From: Methylophaga nitratireducenticrescens
GTDB taxonomy: Bacteria > Pseudomonadota > Gammaproteobacteria > Nitrosococcales > Methylophagaceae
NCBI RefSeq assembly: GCF_000260985.4
Contig: NC_017857.3
Location: 558,001-622,000 of the forward strand
Length of the DNA stretch: 64,000 nt
Direction of reading: 5' to 3'
In this document: in pieces, positions 17,823-31,153 of the stretch
Layout: each line of letters starts with the position of its first letter
Position numbering within the stretch: the stretch's first letter is position 1
Translations under genes and position numbers: made by a program
The notes under the pieces: model-generated
The model's input: the letters and a program-made list of their open reading frames with translations, nothing else
The model's database searches: none
What the model was told of the DNA's origin: nothing

Positions 17823-19288
17823 ATGGCTGCCCGTCGAAGAACGAAAATTGTTGCAACCCTGGGGCCTGCGACAAAAGATCATGCCGTTCTTGACGCGATG
17901 ATATCGGCAGGCATGGATGTTGTGCGGCTTAATTTCTCGCATGGGTCATCACAGTCGCATATTGATATGGCTGACAGGGTGCGTAACCGTGCCAGCGACT
18001 TTGGACGTGAGGTTGGCGTATTAGTTGATTTGCAGGGACCGAAAATTCGCATCTCTCGGTTCAAAAACGGTGGTGTGGAACTTGTTGAAAATGAGGCTTT
18101 TATCTTGGATGCGGCCCTGGCCGATGATGAAGGTGATGACACTCAGGTAGGCGTTGACTACAAATCACTTCCCCATGATGTAAAACGTGGTGACACGCTG
18201 TTATTGGATGATGGCCGCATTGTTTTGTGGGTTGAATCGGTTATCGATCAACAGATTCACTGCCGGATCTCCGTGGGCGGAATGCTTACCGACAATAAAG
18301 GTATTAACCGGCAGGGCGGCGGATTATCGGCATCTGCGCTGACAATCAAAGATATGGCCGATATAAAAACCGCTGCTGAAATACAGGCTGATTACCTCGC
18401 CGTTTCTTTCCCACGAAGTGCTGAAGACATTCATCTGGCCCGTCGCCTGTTGCGTGAAGCCGGTGGCTATGGCGGTATTATTGCCAAAATTGAACGTGCT
18501 GAAGCGCTGGATGATATTGATGCGATTATTGAAGCATCGGAAGGCATAATGATTGCCCGAGGTGATTTAGGCGTGGAAATGGGAGATGCCGCATTACCGC
18601 CAATTCAAAAACAGCTAATTGCCAAAGCCAGACGCATGAATCGATTAACTATCACTGCAACGCAAATGATGGAATCAATGATTGAAAGTCCTCTCCCAAC
18701 CCGTGCCGAGGTATTTGATGTAGCGAATGCTGTATTGGACGGCTCTGATGCGGTGATGCTTTCAGGAGAAACCGCAGTCGGGCATTATCCGGTTAAAGTC
18801 ATTGAAGCAATGGACCGTATTTGTCTTCAGGCGGAGCAACAGCGTGAAATACGTGTTTCTCGTCATCGAGTGGATTCAAAATTTGAACGAATTGATGAAG
18901 CCATTGCAATGGCGGCGATGTATACCGCTAATCATCTTGATGTCAAAGCAATTGCAGCGATGACTGAATCAGGTTCATCACCCTTGTGGATGTCACGTAT
19001 CAGCTCCGGAATTCCCATTTTTGCGTTAACCCCCATGTTGCGACTCGGCGGAGAGTGACTTTGTATCGTGGGGTGTATCCCGTGAGTTTTGTTGTAGACC
19101 ATACTGATCATGCCTCATTGAATAAAGAAGCGATTGATGAATTGCAGCGTCGCGGAGTAGTCAAAGAGGGGGATGTTGTTATTATTACCAAAGGTGATCT
19201 CGAGGTGCAGGGCAGCACCAATATGATAAAGATTGTGAAAGTGGGCGAGCTGGTTGAACCTCTTTCCCAAGGTAATAGTTGTGAATAA
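17823..19288 (+). CDS. pyk: Pyruvate kinase, frameshifted near the C-terminus
   Basis: As read, the frame stops at 19058 after 411 residues, but the missing C-terminal domain continues in the next frame to 19288. Adding one C to the C5 run at 19030-19034 joins PIFALTP to [19 protein letters not shown], exactly the expected order, and gives 488 residues, the normal length. Active-site motifs in the first part are [46 protein letters not shown] and TQMMESMI. It makes pyruvate and ATP from phosphoenolpyruvate. A sequencing error in the C run is the simplest explanation. Confidence 0.93.
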
Positions 19289-24406: not shown

Positions 24407-25327
24407 ATGGCTGAAAGAATACAAAAAGTACTGGCTCGTGCCGGTTATGGCTCACGTCGCTTGATAGAGAGCTGGATCAAAGAAGGTAAATTACAAGTTA
24501 ATGGTGTGTCAGCCACGCTGGGTGATCAGATAACTGAAAAGGATAGAGTCACCCTTGAAGGGCGACCTTTATCCTCCAAGCGCATCTGGCAACAAAGCAT
24601 GCCGCAGGTTTTGCTGTATCACAAACCGGTAGGTGAAGTGTGTACCCGTAATGATCCGGAAGGTCGCAGAACTATCTATCAATCATTACCGGCACCGGAA
24701 GATGGCCGCTGGGTCAGTGTAGGACGACTTGATTTGAATACCAGTGGGTTGATCATTCTGACCACCGATGGTGAACTGGCTAATCAGTTAATGCACCCAT
24801 CCAATGAAATGGATCGTGAGTACGCTGTGCGTGTCCTGGGGGAGGTCACTTCCGAGATGATGCAAACCTTACGCGATGGGGTTGAGCTAGAAGATGGCAA
24901 AGCCCATTTTTCTGATATTCAGCCAGGTGGTGGTGAAGGCGCAAACAGCTGGTTTCATGTGGTGATTCAGGAAGGACGTAACCGTGAAGTCCGACGGCTG
25001 TGGGAAAGCCAGGGCGTGCAGGTAAGCCGTTTGGTTCGTCTGCGTTATGGTCCGGTCATCATGCCAAATAAACTCAAGCCTGGCCGCTGGATGATGCTGG
25101 AAGGCAAAGAGTTGGAATTTCTATACGAAGAAGCGGGTTTAAAAACAAAAACCACTAAACGTGGTAGTGTGGAAAAAGTGGCTGCAGTCAAGGATGTGGA
25201 ATTAGAAAAAGCGCCAAAATCCAAGTGGCCAGATAAAGCGGCAAAAAAGGCTGCACCTAGATCCAGAAAAGCTGATGATCAACCGGCTAAACGAGGTCCA
25301 CGGATTCGTGGACGCAATGATCGTTAA
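24407..25327 (+). CDS. rluB: 23S rRNA pseudouridine synthase B
   Basis: 306 residues. An S4 RNA-binding domain (ERIQKVLARAGYGSRRLIES) is followed by the RsuA-type catalytic domain with GRLDLNTSGLIILTTDGELA, which contains the catalytic Asp. NREVRRLWESQGVQVSRLVR follows. The last 60 residues are a Lys/Arg-rich tail (APRSRKADDQPAKRGPRIRG). It modifies position 2605 (E. coli numbering) of 23S rRNA. It overlaps the convergent diguanylate cyclase gene by 4 bases. Confidence 0.93.
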   Translation: MAERIQKVLARAGYGSRRLIESWIKEGKLQVNGVSATLGDQITEKDRVTLEGRPLSSKRIWQQSMPQVLLYHKPVGEVCTRNDPEGRRTIYQSLPAPEDGRWVSVGRLDLNTSGLIILTTDGELANQLMHPSNEMDREYAVRVLGEVTSEMMQTLRDGVELEDGKAHFSDIQPGGGEGANSWFHVVIQEGRNREVRRLWESQGVQVSRLVRLRYGPVIMPNKLKPGRWMMLEGKELEFLYEEAGLKTKTTKRGSVEKVAAVKDVELEKAPKSKWPDKAAKKAAPRSRKADDQPAKRGPRIRGRNDR

Positions 25328-26262
25328 AATATCTCGCGGGAAGATATGACCTGATTGCGACCAGCAAATTTTGCCTGATATAAAGCCTCATCTGCTTTAA
25401 GAAACAAGCTATCAGCTGATTCGCCGACACACAAATCTGCCAGACCAATACTGATTGAAATGGGAAATTTCTGTTCGGCATGGGTTTGATTTAGGTCATC
25501 AATCGCCGCCCGTAATCTTTCAGCTACCTGCAGAGCAGCACCATGATTGCTATGGCTGAGCACAATGGCAAATTCTTCGCCTCCTATACGAAACAATGCA
25601 TCACTGCGGCGTAAGCTGTGTAGTAAGGTATCCGCAACTCGGCATAACGTATCATCACCGACCTGATGTCCAAAACTGTCATTAATCTTCTTGAAGTAAT
25701 CAATATCAAGCACCATCAGTGAAAGGGGCAGTTTTAGTCGATGTGCCAGATCTATTTCACGTTCAAGGGTATTTTTATAGGCCTGTCTGTTGGGAAGTTG
25801 CGTTAACATATCCGTTAATGCTGCATCTAGCGCACGAGCGTACTGCAGGCTGTTTCTCAGTGGATAAACCAGTTTGCATAATAAATCTTCTATCAGATTT
25901 ATTTCGTTCTCGGAAAAGCGGGAGGCACGACTCACTGTTAATCGTCCAAGGTATTCATGATCAATTTCCAGCTGGTAGTTACATTTATGATGACGCGAAG
26001 CCCCTAATCTGAACTCAAATTTATTATCAGGGTGGGTAAACTGAAGGCCGTTGTGGGCGAGTAGTGGTTTGATTTTCTCGTCAAACAATCTGAGTATCTG
26101 TCTGGTATCCAGTGAGGTTTGCAGAATTAAAGGTAGTTTTGCCAATACATCTTCGCATTCCACTGACACAGGAGGGGTTTGTACAACTGAAACAGTATTC
26201 TGTTCCAGGCGACGCAAATTTGTAGTATCTGAAGGCAGTGAATGGATCATGGGCACGCTCAT
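25324..26262 (-). CDS. Diguanylate cyclase with N-terminal sensor region
   Basis: 312 residues. The C-terminal half is a GGDEF domain: LTDMLTQLPNRQAYKNTLER, DIDYFKKINDSFGHQVGDD, and the active-site GGEEF preceded by an RRSD I-site with the right 5-residue spacing. The enzyme should therefore make cyclic di-GMP and be product-inhibited. The N-terminal ~140 residues look GAF-like (LGASRHHKCNYQLEIDHEYL) and have no membrane segment. No strong ribosome site is seen; an ATG at 26250 is an alternative start. Its 3' end overlaps rluB by 4 bases on the other strand. Confidence 0.9.
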   Translation of the reverse strand: MSVPMIHSLPSDTTNLRRLEQNTVSVVQTPPVSVECEDVLAKLPLILQTSLDTRQILRLFDEKIKPLLAHNGLQFTHPDNKFEFRLGASRHHKCNYQLEIDHEYLGRLTVSRASRFSENEINLIEDLLCKLVYPLRNSLQYARALDAALTDMLTQLPNRQAYKNTLEREIDLAHRLKLPLSLMVLDIDYFKKINDSFGHQVGDDTLCRVADTLLHSLRRSDALFRIGGEEFAIVLSHSNHGAALQVAERLRAAIDDLNQTHAEQKFPISISIGLADLCVGESADSLFLKADEALYQAKFAGRNQVISSREIF

Positions 26263-26339: not shown

Positions 26340-27101
26340 TTATGCCAAAACTTTGACAGGTAGATCCTGCTGTGCATTTAGACATTGACCATGTAAATGG
26401 CCGCTTTGCTCACTGGCAAGATAAAGAAATGCCGGAATGACGGCACTGGGTTCTGGAAGGTGTTGAGGATCCGCTGCAGGAAAAACCCGTGCATGCAATT
26501 TGGTTTTCACTTGACCGGGATCAATGCAATTTACCCTGATTTTAGCGGCAGCTTTCGTTTCCAGAGCTAACTGGTGGCAGAAACACTCTATGGCAGCTTT
26601 GCTCAATCCATAGGCGCCACGATAGGCTTTATCATGCTGACGATCAGTCGTGAAAATAATAAAACTTTGTTGCTTAGTGGCTTGCATCAGAGGAAGACAG
26701 GCATGTGTAAGCAAAAATGTTGCTGTCAAGTTAACCTGCAGCGTTTCAGACCATTGCTTGATCTCCTGATTAGCTGTCGGGGCAAGCTGTCCTACATCGG
26801 CTGCACAATGAACTAATCCATCGAGCTGACCAAAAGTCTCTTTGATGGTCTGTGCAAGTTGCTGGTAGTCTTCTGCTTTTGCGCCTTTAAAATCCACTGG
26901 AAATATTGCGGGCTCAATACCGCTTTCTTGTAGAATGACATCGTACAATTTTTCTAGCTGGGTAATATTTTTATCGAGCAGAATAATCGTCGCACCTTGT
27001 CTGGCATAGGCTAAAGCGACTTCGCTACCGATGCCGCCGAGAGCACCGGTAACAAGCACAATTTTATCGCGGAGTAGCAATGGTTCAGACTGAGACAACA
27101 T
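26340..27101 (-). CDS. Short-chain dehydrogenase (YciK-like)
   Basis: 253 residues. The Rossmann motif is VTGALGGIGSEVALAYARQG at about 16-35 and the active site is YGLSKAAIE (YxxxK). RDKIVLVTGA and ATIILLDKN near the N-terminus resemble YciK, whose substrate is not established. It is 9 bases downstream of the lipoprotein gene at 27111 and probably shares its transcript. Confidence 0.85.
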   Translation of the reverse strand: MLSQSEPLLLRDKIVLVTGALGGIGSEVALAYARQGATIILLDKNITQLEKLYDVILQESGIEPAIFPVDFKGAKAEDYQQLAQTIKETFGQLDGLVHCAADVGQLAPTANQEIKQWSETLQVNLTATFLLTHACLPLMQATKQQSFIIFTTDRQHDKAYRGAYGLSKAAIECFCHQLALETKAAAKIRVNCIDPGQVKTKLHARVFPAADPQHLPEPSAVIPAFLYLASEQSGHLHGQCLNAQQDLPVKVLA

Positions 27102-27110
27102 AAAAAAACT

Positions 27111-27476
27111 TTATTCAGCTTTAGGGACAATACGTCCGTAGGTAACTTTACCATCAACTAATTGAGCAGTAATTAACGCATCATCGTTGTGCCATTCAAG
27201 AATTTCGATATTCATTTGATCTAATGTGCTTTCTTGAGCGATATCAGGTTCGCCGTAGGCTTCAACAAGTTCGGCTTTGGACATGCCTGATTCAATGCCA
27301 TTTTCACTACCTCCAGTTGTAGCTTCAGCAGTTTCTGGTGCAGATTCAACTGTTGCAGGAGCTGATGTCTCAGTTTCGCTACTATCGGTGATAGCAGTGT
27401 CACTCTCATCGCTACAGGCAATCAGGGCCAGACTTAAAAAAAGACCGGTAAAAATTAAACGCATACGATTTAACAT
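27111..27476 (-). CDS. Small lipoprotein with a BamE/SmpA-like domain
   Basis: 121 residues. A lipoprotein signal (LIFTGLFLSLALIAC) ends in the LIAC lipobox. A Thr/Glu/Ala-rich linker of about 45 residues follows. The C-terminal ~55 residues (GMSKAELVEAYGEPDIAQES) have the small alpha/beta pattern seen in SmpA/OmlA/BamE-like proteins. The role is unknown; outer membrane anchoring is inferred, because no Asp follows the lipobox Cys at position +2 (it is Ser). Confidence 0.75.
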   Translation of the reverse strand: MLNRMRLIFTGLFLSLALIACSDESDTAITDSSETETSAPATVESAPETAEATTGGSENGIESGMSKAELVEAYGEPDIAQESTLDQMNIEILEWHNDDALITAQLVDGKVTYGRIVPKAE

Positions 27477-27586: not shown

Positions 27587-27690
27587 GTTGTTCGTTTGTT
27601 TGTTTAGAATGACTAAACTGCTCTTCTCGCGCCTTGATTGGCGATCTTTTAGCTCAAAACAGAGGCGGAGATGAAAGATAAACAAGCCCT
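27587..27690 (+). repeat. Dispersed 104-bp repeat, copy A
   Basis: Starts GTTGTTCGTTTG and ends ATGAAAGATAAACAAGCCCT. It aligns with 44224-44326 along nearly its whole length; the last 80 bases align without a gap at about 70% identity by eye. It fills most of the gap between the lipoprotein and hpnE genes and runs two bases into the hpnE stop codon. Confidence 0.7.
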
Positions 27691-28971
27691 ATGGGACTTT
27701 TCCCGTTAAAACTTTTTCAGCTGCCCGAAAGCCATTCATAACAGCACTCTCCAGAGTTGCTGGATAAGGATTTTCAGCGTAATCACCCGCAATCCAAAGG
27801 CCATTAATGGTTGTTTTACAGCTTGGTCTTTGGTTATTTTCAACTACTCCGCAACGAAAAGTAGCTCTTTTTTCACGAATTACATGTGCGGTGTCATAGT
27901 TAGCCGGTAAATCCGGTAAAAGCTCTGTTAACGCTAAAACGACCTGTTCAGTCAGCTGCTGTTTAGTCAGTGATTCATGCTCTCCAGGACCGCTGATAAC
28001 GACGGCAATTAATCCCGGAGACTGGTCTGATCGATCAAACACCCATTGGGGCAAGGAGCTGCTCAATCCGATAATAGGTGCCTTGAGCCGAAATTGCGGT
28101 GAATACTGCAGATAGACGGTGCTTATTGGATACTCAGAGACTTTTGGAAGATTAAGCTGCTCACCTAAAAGTTTATAGAGAATACTGGGGGATACGGCGA
28201 CAATAATATTATCTGTAGCAAAGTATTCTTTGTTACCAGTAATAACTCCAACCACTTTGCGATTTTCAATAACAATTTTTTCAATACGACTTTGTGACTT
28301 AATTTCTCCGCCATGCTCTGTAATGAAATGTCTCGCAGGCTCAGGTAATATATTGCCCAGCGGCTTTTTCGGGATCAGCAAATCAGCCGATTTTCTTTTT
28401 GCAGTAAGACTATCCCGGAGAGTTGCAGCAAAAACACTGGCTGAAGCCTGTTCTATCGGTGTGTTCAAAATCGCCAGACATAATGGAATCCACAACTGTG
28501 TGATAAGTCTTGTCGATTGGCCTGTCTGTCGGCACCACTGCTCAACAGTAATATTTTGTGTAAAAGAGGGAGCGTTAAGTTGACGCGCTAGTCGCAAAAA
28601 AAACCTTAATTCTTGCCAGCCGAGACAGGAGATAAGCTTGGGTAAAAGGGCAAGTTGCCAGGGTAAAAGTGGATGTGCAGATAAATGTAATGAAGGGTAC
28701 TTCGGATCAAGGATGTGTAGATCCAATGCTGTACGTTGAAAAACGCTGTTTTCTTCAATACCGATTCGCTTAAGCAGATCGAGCATGTTTTGGTAAGCAC
28801 CAATCATCAGATGCTGACCATTATCTATTTCGAGATCTTGCCATTTGACGGTGCGGGCACGCCCCCAAGTTGTTTTGCTGCTTCAAACAAGATGGGCTTT
28901 TGTCCCGCTTCTGCCAAATGAACAGTTGCCGCAAGACCACTCCAGCCACCACCAACAATGATGGGTTGCAT
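27689..28971 (-). CDS. hpnE: HpnE, hydroxysqualene-dehydroxylating FAD protein, frameshifted near the N-terminus
   Basis: The first 40 or so codons from the ATG at 28971 read MQPIIVGGGWSGLAATVHLA, the FAD-binding loop. The frame then breaks at a G5 run (C5 at 28862-28866 on the plus strand). With one more G the frame gives QLGGRARTVKW and continues as GQHLMIGAYQNMLDLL to a normal C-terminus near 427 residues. The end FRCGVVENNQRPSCKTTING...GLWIAGDYAENPYPATLESA is typical of the family. HpnE converts hydroxysqualene to squalene. It starts 1 base after the hpnD stop. A sequencing error in the run is likely. Confidence 0.88.
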
Positions 28972-28972
28972 A

Positions 28973-29830
28973 TTATTTATGGTTTTTAGCGAGCTTTTTT
29001 TCACGTCGGAAAGTGCGCCATGCCAGCCATAATTTACGAATTGGGGTAAGCGAGACTCGTTGTTTCATTACCTGAAAATTATCAACAGCAATTTCCTGCA
29101 AAGTAGTGCGATAGATTTCAGCCATAATCAATGCGGTGCATTGATGATAGCGATCTTGATTGGGCAGTAACTGCATGGCTTCCTGATAAAATCCTTCTGC
29201 ACGTTTAGCCTGAAACTCGAGTATTTTGGTCAATTCACTGGTTTGCTGCAAAGACAGAATAGTCTGTTCTGTAACACCAAATTGTTGCATTTCATCCAAC
29301 GGCAGATATATACGACCGCGGCCAGCATCTTCGCGAACATCCCGGATGATATTGGTGAGTTGAAACGCCAGCCCCAGTTTTTCGGCAAACTTTAATGTGT
29401 TGCGATCGGAATAACCGAATATCTGTGCTGACAATAAACCCACAACACTGGCCACACGATGACAATATAAGGCCAGGTTTTTATAGGATGGATAACGATG
29501 CTGAGTTAAATCCATTTCCATGCCATCAATGATCTCGTGAAAATATTCTTCATGCAGATCGAAATCCTGCAGTATATCAGCGAGGGCTTTTCCAACGGGG
29601 TGAGTGGCTTGGTCGAAAAAGGTATTTGCTACTTCCTGACGCCACCAGGCGAGAGTTTGTGCTGCAACTAACGGATCGCTTATCTCGTCAACGGCATCGT
29701 CAACTTCCCGGCAGAACGCATACAAGGCCATGATGGCATCTCGTTTTTTGGCGGGTAAAAACAGAAAACTGTAATAGAAACTGGAACCACTTTTCGCCGC
29801 TTTGTCCCGACAATATTGCTGTGGTGTCAT
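28973..29830 (-). CDS. hpnD: Presqualene diphosphate synthase HpnD
   Basis: 285 residues. It opens TPQQYCRDKAAKSGSSFYYS as HpnD proteins do. The two Asp-rich prenyltransferase motifs are FCREVDDAVDE and NIIRDVREDAGRGRIYLP. The enzyme joins two farnesyl diphosphates head-to-head to presqualene diphosphate, the first step of the HpnCDE route to squalene; related enzymes make C30 carotenoid precursors. It overlaps the ferredoxin gene upstream by 4 bases and hpnE follows immediately. No hpnC is visible in the window. Confidence 0.92.
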   Translation of the reverse strand: MTPQQYCRDKAAKSGSSFYYSFLFLPAKKRDAIMALYAFCREVDDAVDEISDPLVAAQTLAWWRQEVANTFFDQATHPVGKALADILQDFDLHEEYFHEIIDGMEMDLTQHRYPSYKNLALYCHRVASVVGLLSAQIFGYSDRNTLKFAEKLGLAFQLTNIIRDVREDAGRGRIYLPLDEMQQFGVTEQTILSLQQTSELTKILEFQAKRAEGFYQEAMQLLPNQDRYHQCTALIMAEIYRTTLQEIAVDNFQVMKQRVSLTPIRKLWLAWRTFRREKKLAKNHK

Positions 29831-30129
29831 TTTAAAAGCCGTTCGACAATTTTGCCGTTCATCAGGTGTGTGTCGATGATTTCATCGATATCAGCTTTAT
29901 CATGATATTGATACCAAACGCCTTCCGGATAAATCACCATTATCGGACCCAATTTGCAGCGATTCAGACAGCCTGAATTGTTAACCCGGACTTTTTTTAA
30001 ATTGAGTTCTTTCACTTGCTGTTTTGCATAATCACGGAGTGACTGCGCTCCGTGCTCCTCACAGCAATCGGTGCCATCATCACGTTGATGCGTGCAAATG
30101 AACATATGATATTTATATATTTCAGTCAT
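29827..30129 (-). CDS. Thioredoxin-like [2Fe-2S] ferredoxin
   Basis: 100 residues. Cysteines at 12, 22/23, 54 and 58 fit the C-x10-C...C-x3-C pattern of the thioredoxin-fold [2Fe-2S] ferredoxins: HMFICTHQRDDGTDCCEEHG, then NNSGCLNRCKLGPIMVIYPE. It should carry single electrons in the cytosol. Its stop overlaps the hpnD start (ATGA), so it is translated together with the squalene genes, and it could supply electrons to HpnE; that is inference. Alternative: an unrelated housekeeping ferredoxin that happens to lead the operon. Confidence 0.9.
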   Translation of the reverse strand: MTEIYKYHMFICTHQRDDGTDCCEEHGAQSLRDYAKQQVKELNLKKVRVNNSGCLNRCKLGPIMVIYPEGVWYQYHDKADIDEIIDTHLMNGKIVERLLK

Positions 30130-30184: not shown

Positions 30185-31153
30185 TTAAAAATGACGGGAA
30201 ATCGCAAAATCAGCCAGTCCAATTAAGGCTGCTTTATATTCCGAATCGGGAACAATTTCGAGATTAGCCTTAGCCTGCTCAACTTCCCTGTGTGCTGCAG
30301 CGGCAGTGTAATCAATGGCGCCGGAACTGTGGATAATCTTAATAATTTCATTAATTTTATCACGCTGGCCTTTTTCAATTGCTTCACGGATGATCGCTGA
30401 TTGCTCAGTAGATCCCATTTGCATGGCATAAATAAGCGGCAAAGTTGGTTTGCCTTCAGCCAAATCATCACCGATATTTTTGCCAATGGTCTCACTGGAT
30501 GCACTGTAATCCAGTAAATCATCCACCAGTTGGAAGGCACTGCCAAGATGCATAGCATATTGCGCTAATGCAGTTTCAATTTCAGCGGAAGCATTACTGA
30601 TTAATGCACCTAACTGCCCAGCTGCTTCAAATAACTTGGCGGTTTTATGATGAATGACCTGCAGATAACTTTCTTCTGTGGTGTCTGCATTATGCACATT
30701 AAGTAATTGTAAGACTTCACCCTCGGCAATTACATTGGTGGTATGCGAGAGGATTTGCATCAATCGCATCGAATCAAGTTCTACCATCATTTCAAACGCT
30801 CGGGTATAGAGAAAATCACCCACCAATACACTGGCTTCATTTCCCCAGACACTGTTGGCGGTTTCCTGACCTCGACGCATTGATGAGTTGTCGACCACAT
30901 CATCATGTAACAATGTCGCGGTATGAATGAACTCGATAATCGTTGCAAGATTGATATGTGCAGTTGCCTGATGATTGCAGGTGCGGGCACTTAACAAAGC
31001 AATAGCGGGCCGCAAACGCTTGCCACCACTATTGATGATGTAATGTCCGAGTTGATTGATCAATACAACCTCAGAGTGCAGCCGATGTTGTATCATTGCG
31101 TCAACCGCATCCATATCCTGCTGGATAAGTGCGTAAATGGATTGTATATCCAC
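30185..31153 (-). CDS. ispB: Octaprenyl diphosphate synthase
   Basis: 322 residues. Trans-prenyltransferase with the first Asp-rich motif in LLHDDVVDNSSMRRG and the second in QLVDDLLDYSA; GGKRLRP lies near residue 47. It makes the polyprenyl side chain of ubiquinone. The start is a GTG at 31153, which aligns the protein with E. coli IspB; the ribosome site is weak. It diverges from rplU across 167 bases, the arrangement found throughout gammaproteobacteria. It lies 55 bases upstream of the ferredoxin-hpnDE genes on the same strand, so the prenyl genes may share a transcript. Confidence 0.95.
   Translation of the reverse strand: MDIQSIYALIQQDMDAVDAMIQHRLHSEVVLINQLGHYIINSGGKRLRPAIALLSARTCNHQATAHINLATIIEFIHTATLLHDDVVDNSSMRRGQETANSVWGNEASVLVGDFLYTRAFEMMVELDSMRLMQILSHTTNVIAEGEVLQLLNVHNADTTEESYLQVIHHKTAKLFEAAGQLGALISNASAEIETALAQYAMHLGSAFQLVDDLLDYSASSETIGKNIGDDLAEGKPTLPLIYAMQMGSTEQSAIIREAIEKGQRDKINEIIKIIHSSGAIDYTAAAAHREVEQAKANLEIVPDSEYKAALIGLADFAISRHF

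Follow-up and report, generated by a model that had tools for sequence, protein, structure and literature searches.

In the genome of Methylophaga nitratireducenticrescens, a gene for a [2Fe-2S] ferredoxin directly precedes hpnD and hpnE, two of the genes for the three-enzyme bacterial squalene pathway. Is this ferredoxin the electron donor of HpnE, as a sequence-only reading of the locus proposed, and what does the absence of hpnC from the cluster mean? These questions were addressed by analyzing the window, i.e. the whole stretch of 64,000 nucleotides around the locus, and by comparing it with the remainder of the genome (G000), with 34 further genomes of the Methylophagaceae and with a sample of 276 genomes of the class Gammaproteobacteria. 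The narG1 qPCR primers published for M. nitratireducenticrescens JAM1/GP59 (PMC5918138) match this genome exactly and give the published product length of 149 bases. Coordinates refer to the window unless a genome position is given.

Gene order around hpnD

All genes of the run lie on the minus strand and are transcribed in the order ispB, ferredoxin, hpnD, hpnE. The run is headed by ispB (30185..31153), encoding an octaprenyl diphosphate synthase (429.8 bits with NF008140, cut-off 412). The following gene (29827..30129) codes for a protein of 100 amino acids whose match to 1f37, the thioredoxin-like [2Fe-2S] ferredoxin of Aquifex, has an E value of 6e-17. Its four cluster cysteines all align, and together with the match to solved members they place the protein in the thioredoxin-like [2Fe-2S] family, to which FeSI of Azotobacter also belongs (PMC8561814). 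By sequence, the Methylophaga ferredoxin thus shares the fold family of 1f37 and FeSI. It lies outside any nif region and remained below the cut-offs for both the Clostridium (NF041612, 76.7 versus 150 bits) and the Azotobacter equivalog of NCBIfam (NF041613, 64.1 versus 195 bits).

The presqualene diphosphate synthase gene hpnD (28973..29830) clearly belongs to its family. It exceeded the curated TIGR03465 cut-off (370.4 versus 278.6 bits), and a motif alignment revealed both Asp-rich motifs (DDAVDE and DVRED) to be intact. The four-base overlap between the ferredoxin gene and hpnD and the single base separating hpnD from hpnE, both described before, were confirmed: the shared bases are ATGA, and the start codon of hpnE is located at 28971. 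Probably, the ferredoxin gene is co-transcribed with hpnD, and the two are translationally coupled.

The frame break in hpnE

The gene behind hpnD had been read as hpnE, its frame break going unnoticed. Start and position of the gene are correct, but it does not form one open frame. The N-terminal frame (28825..28971), recognized by translation and alignment to relatives, contains the FAD-binding motif GGGWSG and stops at 28825 after 48 amino acids. Most of the protein lies in a second frame, in which the longest ATG-started ORF (27689..28807) comprises 372 amino acids. The two are separated at a run of five G (28862..28866), a site that relatives read in a single frame. The remainder still reached 296.3 bits with TIGR03467 (cut-off 283), a score that rose to 336 bits when the genome scan read through the break, although one continuous frame including the FAD-binding N-terminus does not exist because of this break, which may be a sequence error. 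The scan of whole genomes showed one internal stop in this hpnE and none in 30 other Methylophagaceae copies over the cut-off. A second HpnE copy was not found in the genome. The next match (genome position 1494903, 53 bits) was rejected, as it belongs to an oxidoreductase of 421 amino acids adjoining a fatty-acid-desaturase-like gene. Programmed frameshifting was ruled out because hpnE forms a single frame in the relatives, which lack this G run.

Whether hpnE is a real pseudogene or the victim of a sequence error is a matter of near even chances. If the mutation is real, a reading that we place somewhat short of an even bet, the strain would get no further than hydroxysqualene, and decay of the run would be under way. 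This would agree with the lack of any frame linking the FAD motif to the remainder and with the quality of the sequence: the JAM1 genome of this species was resequenced by PacBio with over 260-fold coverage and its pseudogenes were checked manually (PMC5918138). Moreover, the sequence shows no shortage of six-base runs of G or C, so no general under-calling was seen; a systematic fault of this kind was dropped as a candidate, and the run-length counts leave the decision between error and real frameshift unsettled. On the other hand, the pyruvate kinase gene, 10 kb off, shows a break of the same kind where five C follow one another, and the reverse comparison yielded no broken gene in four close relatives; the coincidence of two such breaks here with none in the relatives suggests a sequencing error. 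Nor has the remainder of hpnE changed at an accelerated rate (dN/dS 0.17 to the relative G017, versus 0.19 between two intact copies).

Two further observations were made on this part of the window. The pyruvate kinase gene (17823-19285, plus strand) is interrupted near 19019-19034 and is either a pseudogene or affected by a sequence error; in the four close relatives it is intact and encodes 480-497 amino acids. For hpnE (27689-28807), the dS value to G017 was 0.34, while adjacent genes gave values about twice as high (0.68 to 0.85); this difference suggests that hpnE has been exchanged between lineages by recombination.

Location of hpnC

No hpnC gene is present within the window. A search of the genome detected a copy over the cut-off (285 versus 250 bits, TIGR03464) at G000:C1:963685-964599, directly after ubiG-gph-rmuC and approximately 376 kb from hpnD-hpnE, so that the three genes do not form a contiguous operon. 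Hence, the description of hpnC as missing holds for the cluster and fails for the genome, and the suspicion that it lies elsewhere was right. In other Gammaproteobacteria, the order gph-rmuC-hpnC-hpnD-hpnE-SDR is unbroken and often ends with a GGDEF gene (e.g. loci L184, L187, L196 and L204). In the window, hpnD-hpnE are followed on the same strand by a small lipoprotein gene (27111..27476), which part of the Methylophagaceae possess, then by the same SDR gene (26340..27101) and a GGDEF-domain gene (25324..26262). The SDR is YciK-like (NF006509, 242.6 bits, below the cut-off of 269) and follows hpnE in many Gammaproteobacteria, whereas the GGDEF gene, its domain named from the sequence and its role from gene order, closes the conserved block. 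Since hpnC has remained beside ubiG-gph-rmuC and hpnD-hpnE beside SDR and GGDEF, the break is placed between hpnC and hpnD, and this one break accounts for the absence of hpnC from the cluster.

The best explanation, and in our judgement a fairly probable one, is that a squalene operon was broken and its rear part came to stand here behind ispB and a general-purpose ferredoxin. An ancestral operon ubiG-gph-rmuC-hpnC-hpnD-hpnE-SDR would have been split between hpnC and hpnD, leaving the rear half hpnD-hpnE-SDR-GGDEF in its present place behind ispB and the ferredoxin gene. The ferredoxin would have reached the side of hpnD in an ancestor of Methylophagaceae and Nitrosococcaceae. HpnD would form presqualene diphosphate, HpnC, encoded elsewhere, would convert it to hydroxysqualene, and HpnE would yield squalene, this last step being the one that the frame break near the N-terminus would affect in the present assembly. 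We infer both the order of the rearrangements and the activities of the three enzymes from comparison of sequences. In the HpnCDE squalene pathway of Pan et al. (2015), as outlined in PMC6439483 and PMC7839719, the same three enzymes act together, and homologues of all three over or at the cut-offs occur here in one genome, too. What separates Methylophaga from the pathway outlined there is the distant hpnC, the frameshifted hpnE and the ferredoxin preceding hpnD.

The fate of squalene

A hopene cyclase over the cut-off was detected neither in this genome nor in any of the 35 Methylophagaceae genomes. The best match to squalene-hopene cyclase (19 bits, genome position 171961) was discarded, as it is part of a TonB-receptor-like ORF. 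Desaturases of the CrtI/CrtN family were likewise not found: the best TIGR02734 match in the genome scored 21 bits (cut-off 238), and none over the cut-off occurred in 20 congeners searched. The suggestion that the product is a C30 carotenoid precursor could therefore not be upheld, as no desaturase of this family was found in the genome. Where C30 carotenoids are made by the squalene route (Santana-Molina et al. 2022, as mentioned in PMC10448405), HpnCDE supplies the C30 precursor; the present case differs in that the desaturase was not found in this genome, nor over the cut-off in the 20 congeners. The hpnCDE genes are nevertheless conserved in the Methylophagaceae (G000 and 34 genomes), without a hopene cyclase and, in those searched, without a CrtI/CrtN-family desaturase.

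Distribution of the ferredoxin

Within the Methylophagaceae, the ferredoxin is present in 29 of 35 genomes and touches hpnD in every one of them; the ATGA overlap was found in all 25 genomes readable by script. Since the contact is kept in each ferredoxin-bearing genome of the family, it is not due to chance. The coupling of the two genes was thus borne out at family level, and their adjacency is genuine and to some degree constrained. The ferredoxins of close relatives are 91-94% identical, and conservation of the protein far exceeds that of HpnE (93% versus 69% to G020). Three genomes (the complete G009, G025 and G027) contain no ferredoxin either at the locus or elsewhere, and yet possess intact hpnD and hpnE. 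On an HpnD tree, based on this one gene and weak at some nodes, these genomes are placed apart, which therefore indicates about three losses of the ferredoxin. In NORP53 (locus L179), the ferredoxin was not found beside hpnD, while G002 was left unjudged for an N run at the site.

Outside the family, the survey of the class, in which some contigs end close to the locus, revealed HpnE in 59 of the 276 sampled genomes and the ferredoxin in 156 of them; both occurred in 54, a number tallied by hand on comparing the two lists of genomes. The ferredoxin is thus carried by 54 of the 59 HpnE-bearing genomes, compared to 102 of the 217 genomes without HpnE (Fisher p 1e-10, relatedness ignored). Within the flanks taken, the ferredoxin gene was not located near hpnE in any of 69 named loci or 30 class loci outside the Methylophagaceae. 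Ferredoxin neighbours in 48 loci outside the order were rplM (38), rpsI (38), coq7 (33) and a GlcF-like gene (23); coq7 was named by Pfam, the GlcF-like gene by NCBIfam, and the two ribosomal genes were read from the sequence. Across the class, the ferredoxin keeps this conserved home by rplM-rpsI, coq7 and the GlcF-like gene (loci L049-L056 and L133-L172). It is a widespread protein whose usual home in most of the Gammaproteobacteria surveyed is beside rplM-rpsI and coq7.

A second contact with an hpnD-like gene was found in genomes G035-G040, to which the name Nitrosococcaceae was given because of their order-level kinship. In these genomes the ferredoxin adjoins an HpnD relative, a hopene cyclase is present, and HpnE yielded no match at E 1e-20. 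In the three HpnD relatives aligned (G035, G037 and G040), the catalytic motifs are altered, DDAVDE being replaced by, e.g., VGIVAE or SDIVIE. HpnD-like genes of this group (L058:4778-5638, L059:3776-4636 and L060:3447-4307), which have the ferredoxin gene and an ErpA-like gene as neighbours, are still conserved although both catalytic motifs are altered. It is possible that these HpnD relatives are pseudoenzymes.

What the ferredoxin may do

A dedicated partner of HpnE should be present wherever HpnE is. The ferredoxin fails in this respect, as it is absent from G009, G025 and G027 and from five of the 59 HpnE-bearing genomes of the class. The ferredoxin is neither necessary for the retention of hpnDE nor dependent on HpnE. 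The persistence of hpnDE without the ferredoxin and of the ferredoxin without HpnE, its slower evolution and the reported formation of squalene by hpnCDE in E. coli together lead us to regard it as a ferredoxin of general use, brought into one run with hpnD by a rearrangement. It would serve a wider redox or Fe-S role. Two findings count against this explanation. The overlap with hpnD in every ferredoxin-bearing genome of the family, across deep divergence, goes beyond what is expected of a passive neighbour, and the ferredoxin is commoner in genomes with HpnE than in those without it, relatedness being ignored in this comparison.

A more specific function in ubiquinone synthesis or Fe-S assembly, with the moves of the gene among coq7, erpA and ispB neighbourhoods following that role, is a tentative and rather unlikely alternative. 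It could explain why 33 of the 48 loci have coq7 at a distance of a few kb, why an ErpA-like Fe-S gene is situated directly upstream of the ferredoxin in the Nitrosococcaceae, and why ispB, which makes a quinone side chain, is its upstream neighbour in this genome. However, rplM-rpsI are equally constant neighbours, so that the link to coq7 may be one of position only, and some complete genomes, G009 among them, do without the ferredoxin although quinone must still be made there.

If the FAD of HpnE received its electrons physiologically from the ferredoxin, at least in the Methylophagaceae, the position of the ferredoxin gene beside hpnD would have a functional meaning, and ferredoxin-less relatives would have to use a substitute carrier. 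The strict order ferredoxin-hpnD-hpnE with its ATGA overlap and the high share of HpnE-bearing genomes with the ferredoxin (54 of 59) are in line with this proposal, which we nonetheless consider improbable. It conflicts with some three losses of the ferredoxin in genomes with intact hpnDE, with its retention in the Nitrosococcaceae next to a motif-altered HpnD and without HpnE, and with its occurrence in 102 of 217 HpnE-less genomes of the class. It also conflicts with its absence from the flanks of hpnE at all 69 named and 30 class loci elsewhere, and with the report, as given in the review PMC6439483, that hpnC, hpnD and hpnE of Zymomonas or Rhodopseudomonas produce squalene in E. coli (Pan et al. 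2015). For the hpnDE neighbourhoods as a whole, the sequence-only reading had held that absence of the ferredoxin next to these genes in most relatives would refute its donor idea; this absence was observed at the level of the class but not at that of the family. Inspection of four long-frame loci revealed no fusion of HpnE to a redox domain, and among the open papers searched no relevant one linking HpnE with a ferredoxin was found. The idea of a dedicated HpnE donor is not supported.

A donor role restricted to this clade is possible. In a fuller and improbable version, hpnD gained the ferredoxin as its neighbour in the ancestor of Methylophagaceae and Nitrosococcaceae because the protein served as a clade-specific triterpenoid redox partner feeding HpnE or a later step, and the Methylophaga pathway would end in squalene or in an unrecognised C30 product formed without hopene cyclase or carotenoid desaturase.

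Most likely, the arrangement is the result of a family-specific gene shuffle, and the adjacency is not evidence that the ferredoxin powers a squalene enzyme. The present evidence thus discourages conclusions on function from the neighbourhood of ferredoxin and hpnDE. Natural test cases are provided by the ferredoxin-less relatives with intact hpnDE and by the present genome with its broken hpnE and intact ferredoxin. The locus also draws attention to the conservation of squalene genes in a genus for which no enzyme using squalene is recognised. If the ferredoxin were the donor of HpnE after all, a cultivable methylotroph would allow a direct test of where the three-enzyme bacterial squalene pathway obtains its electrons.
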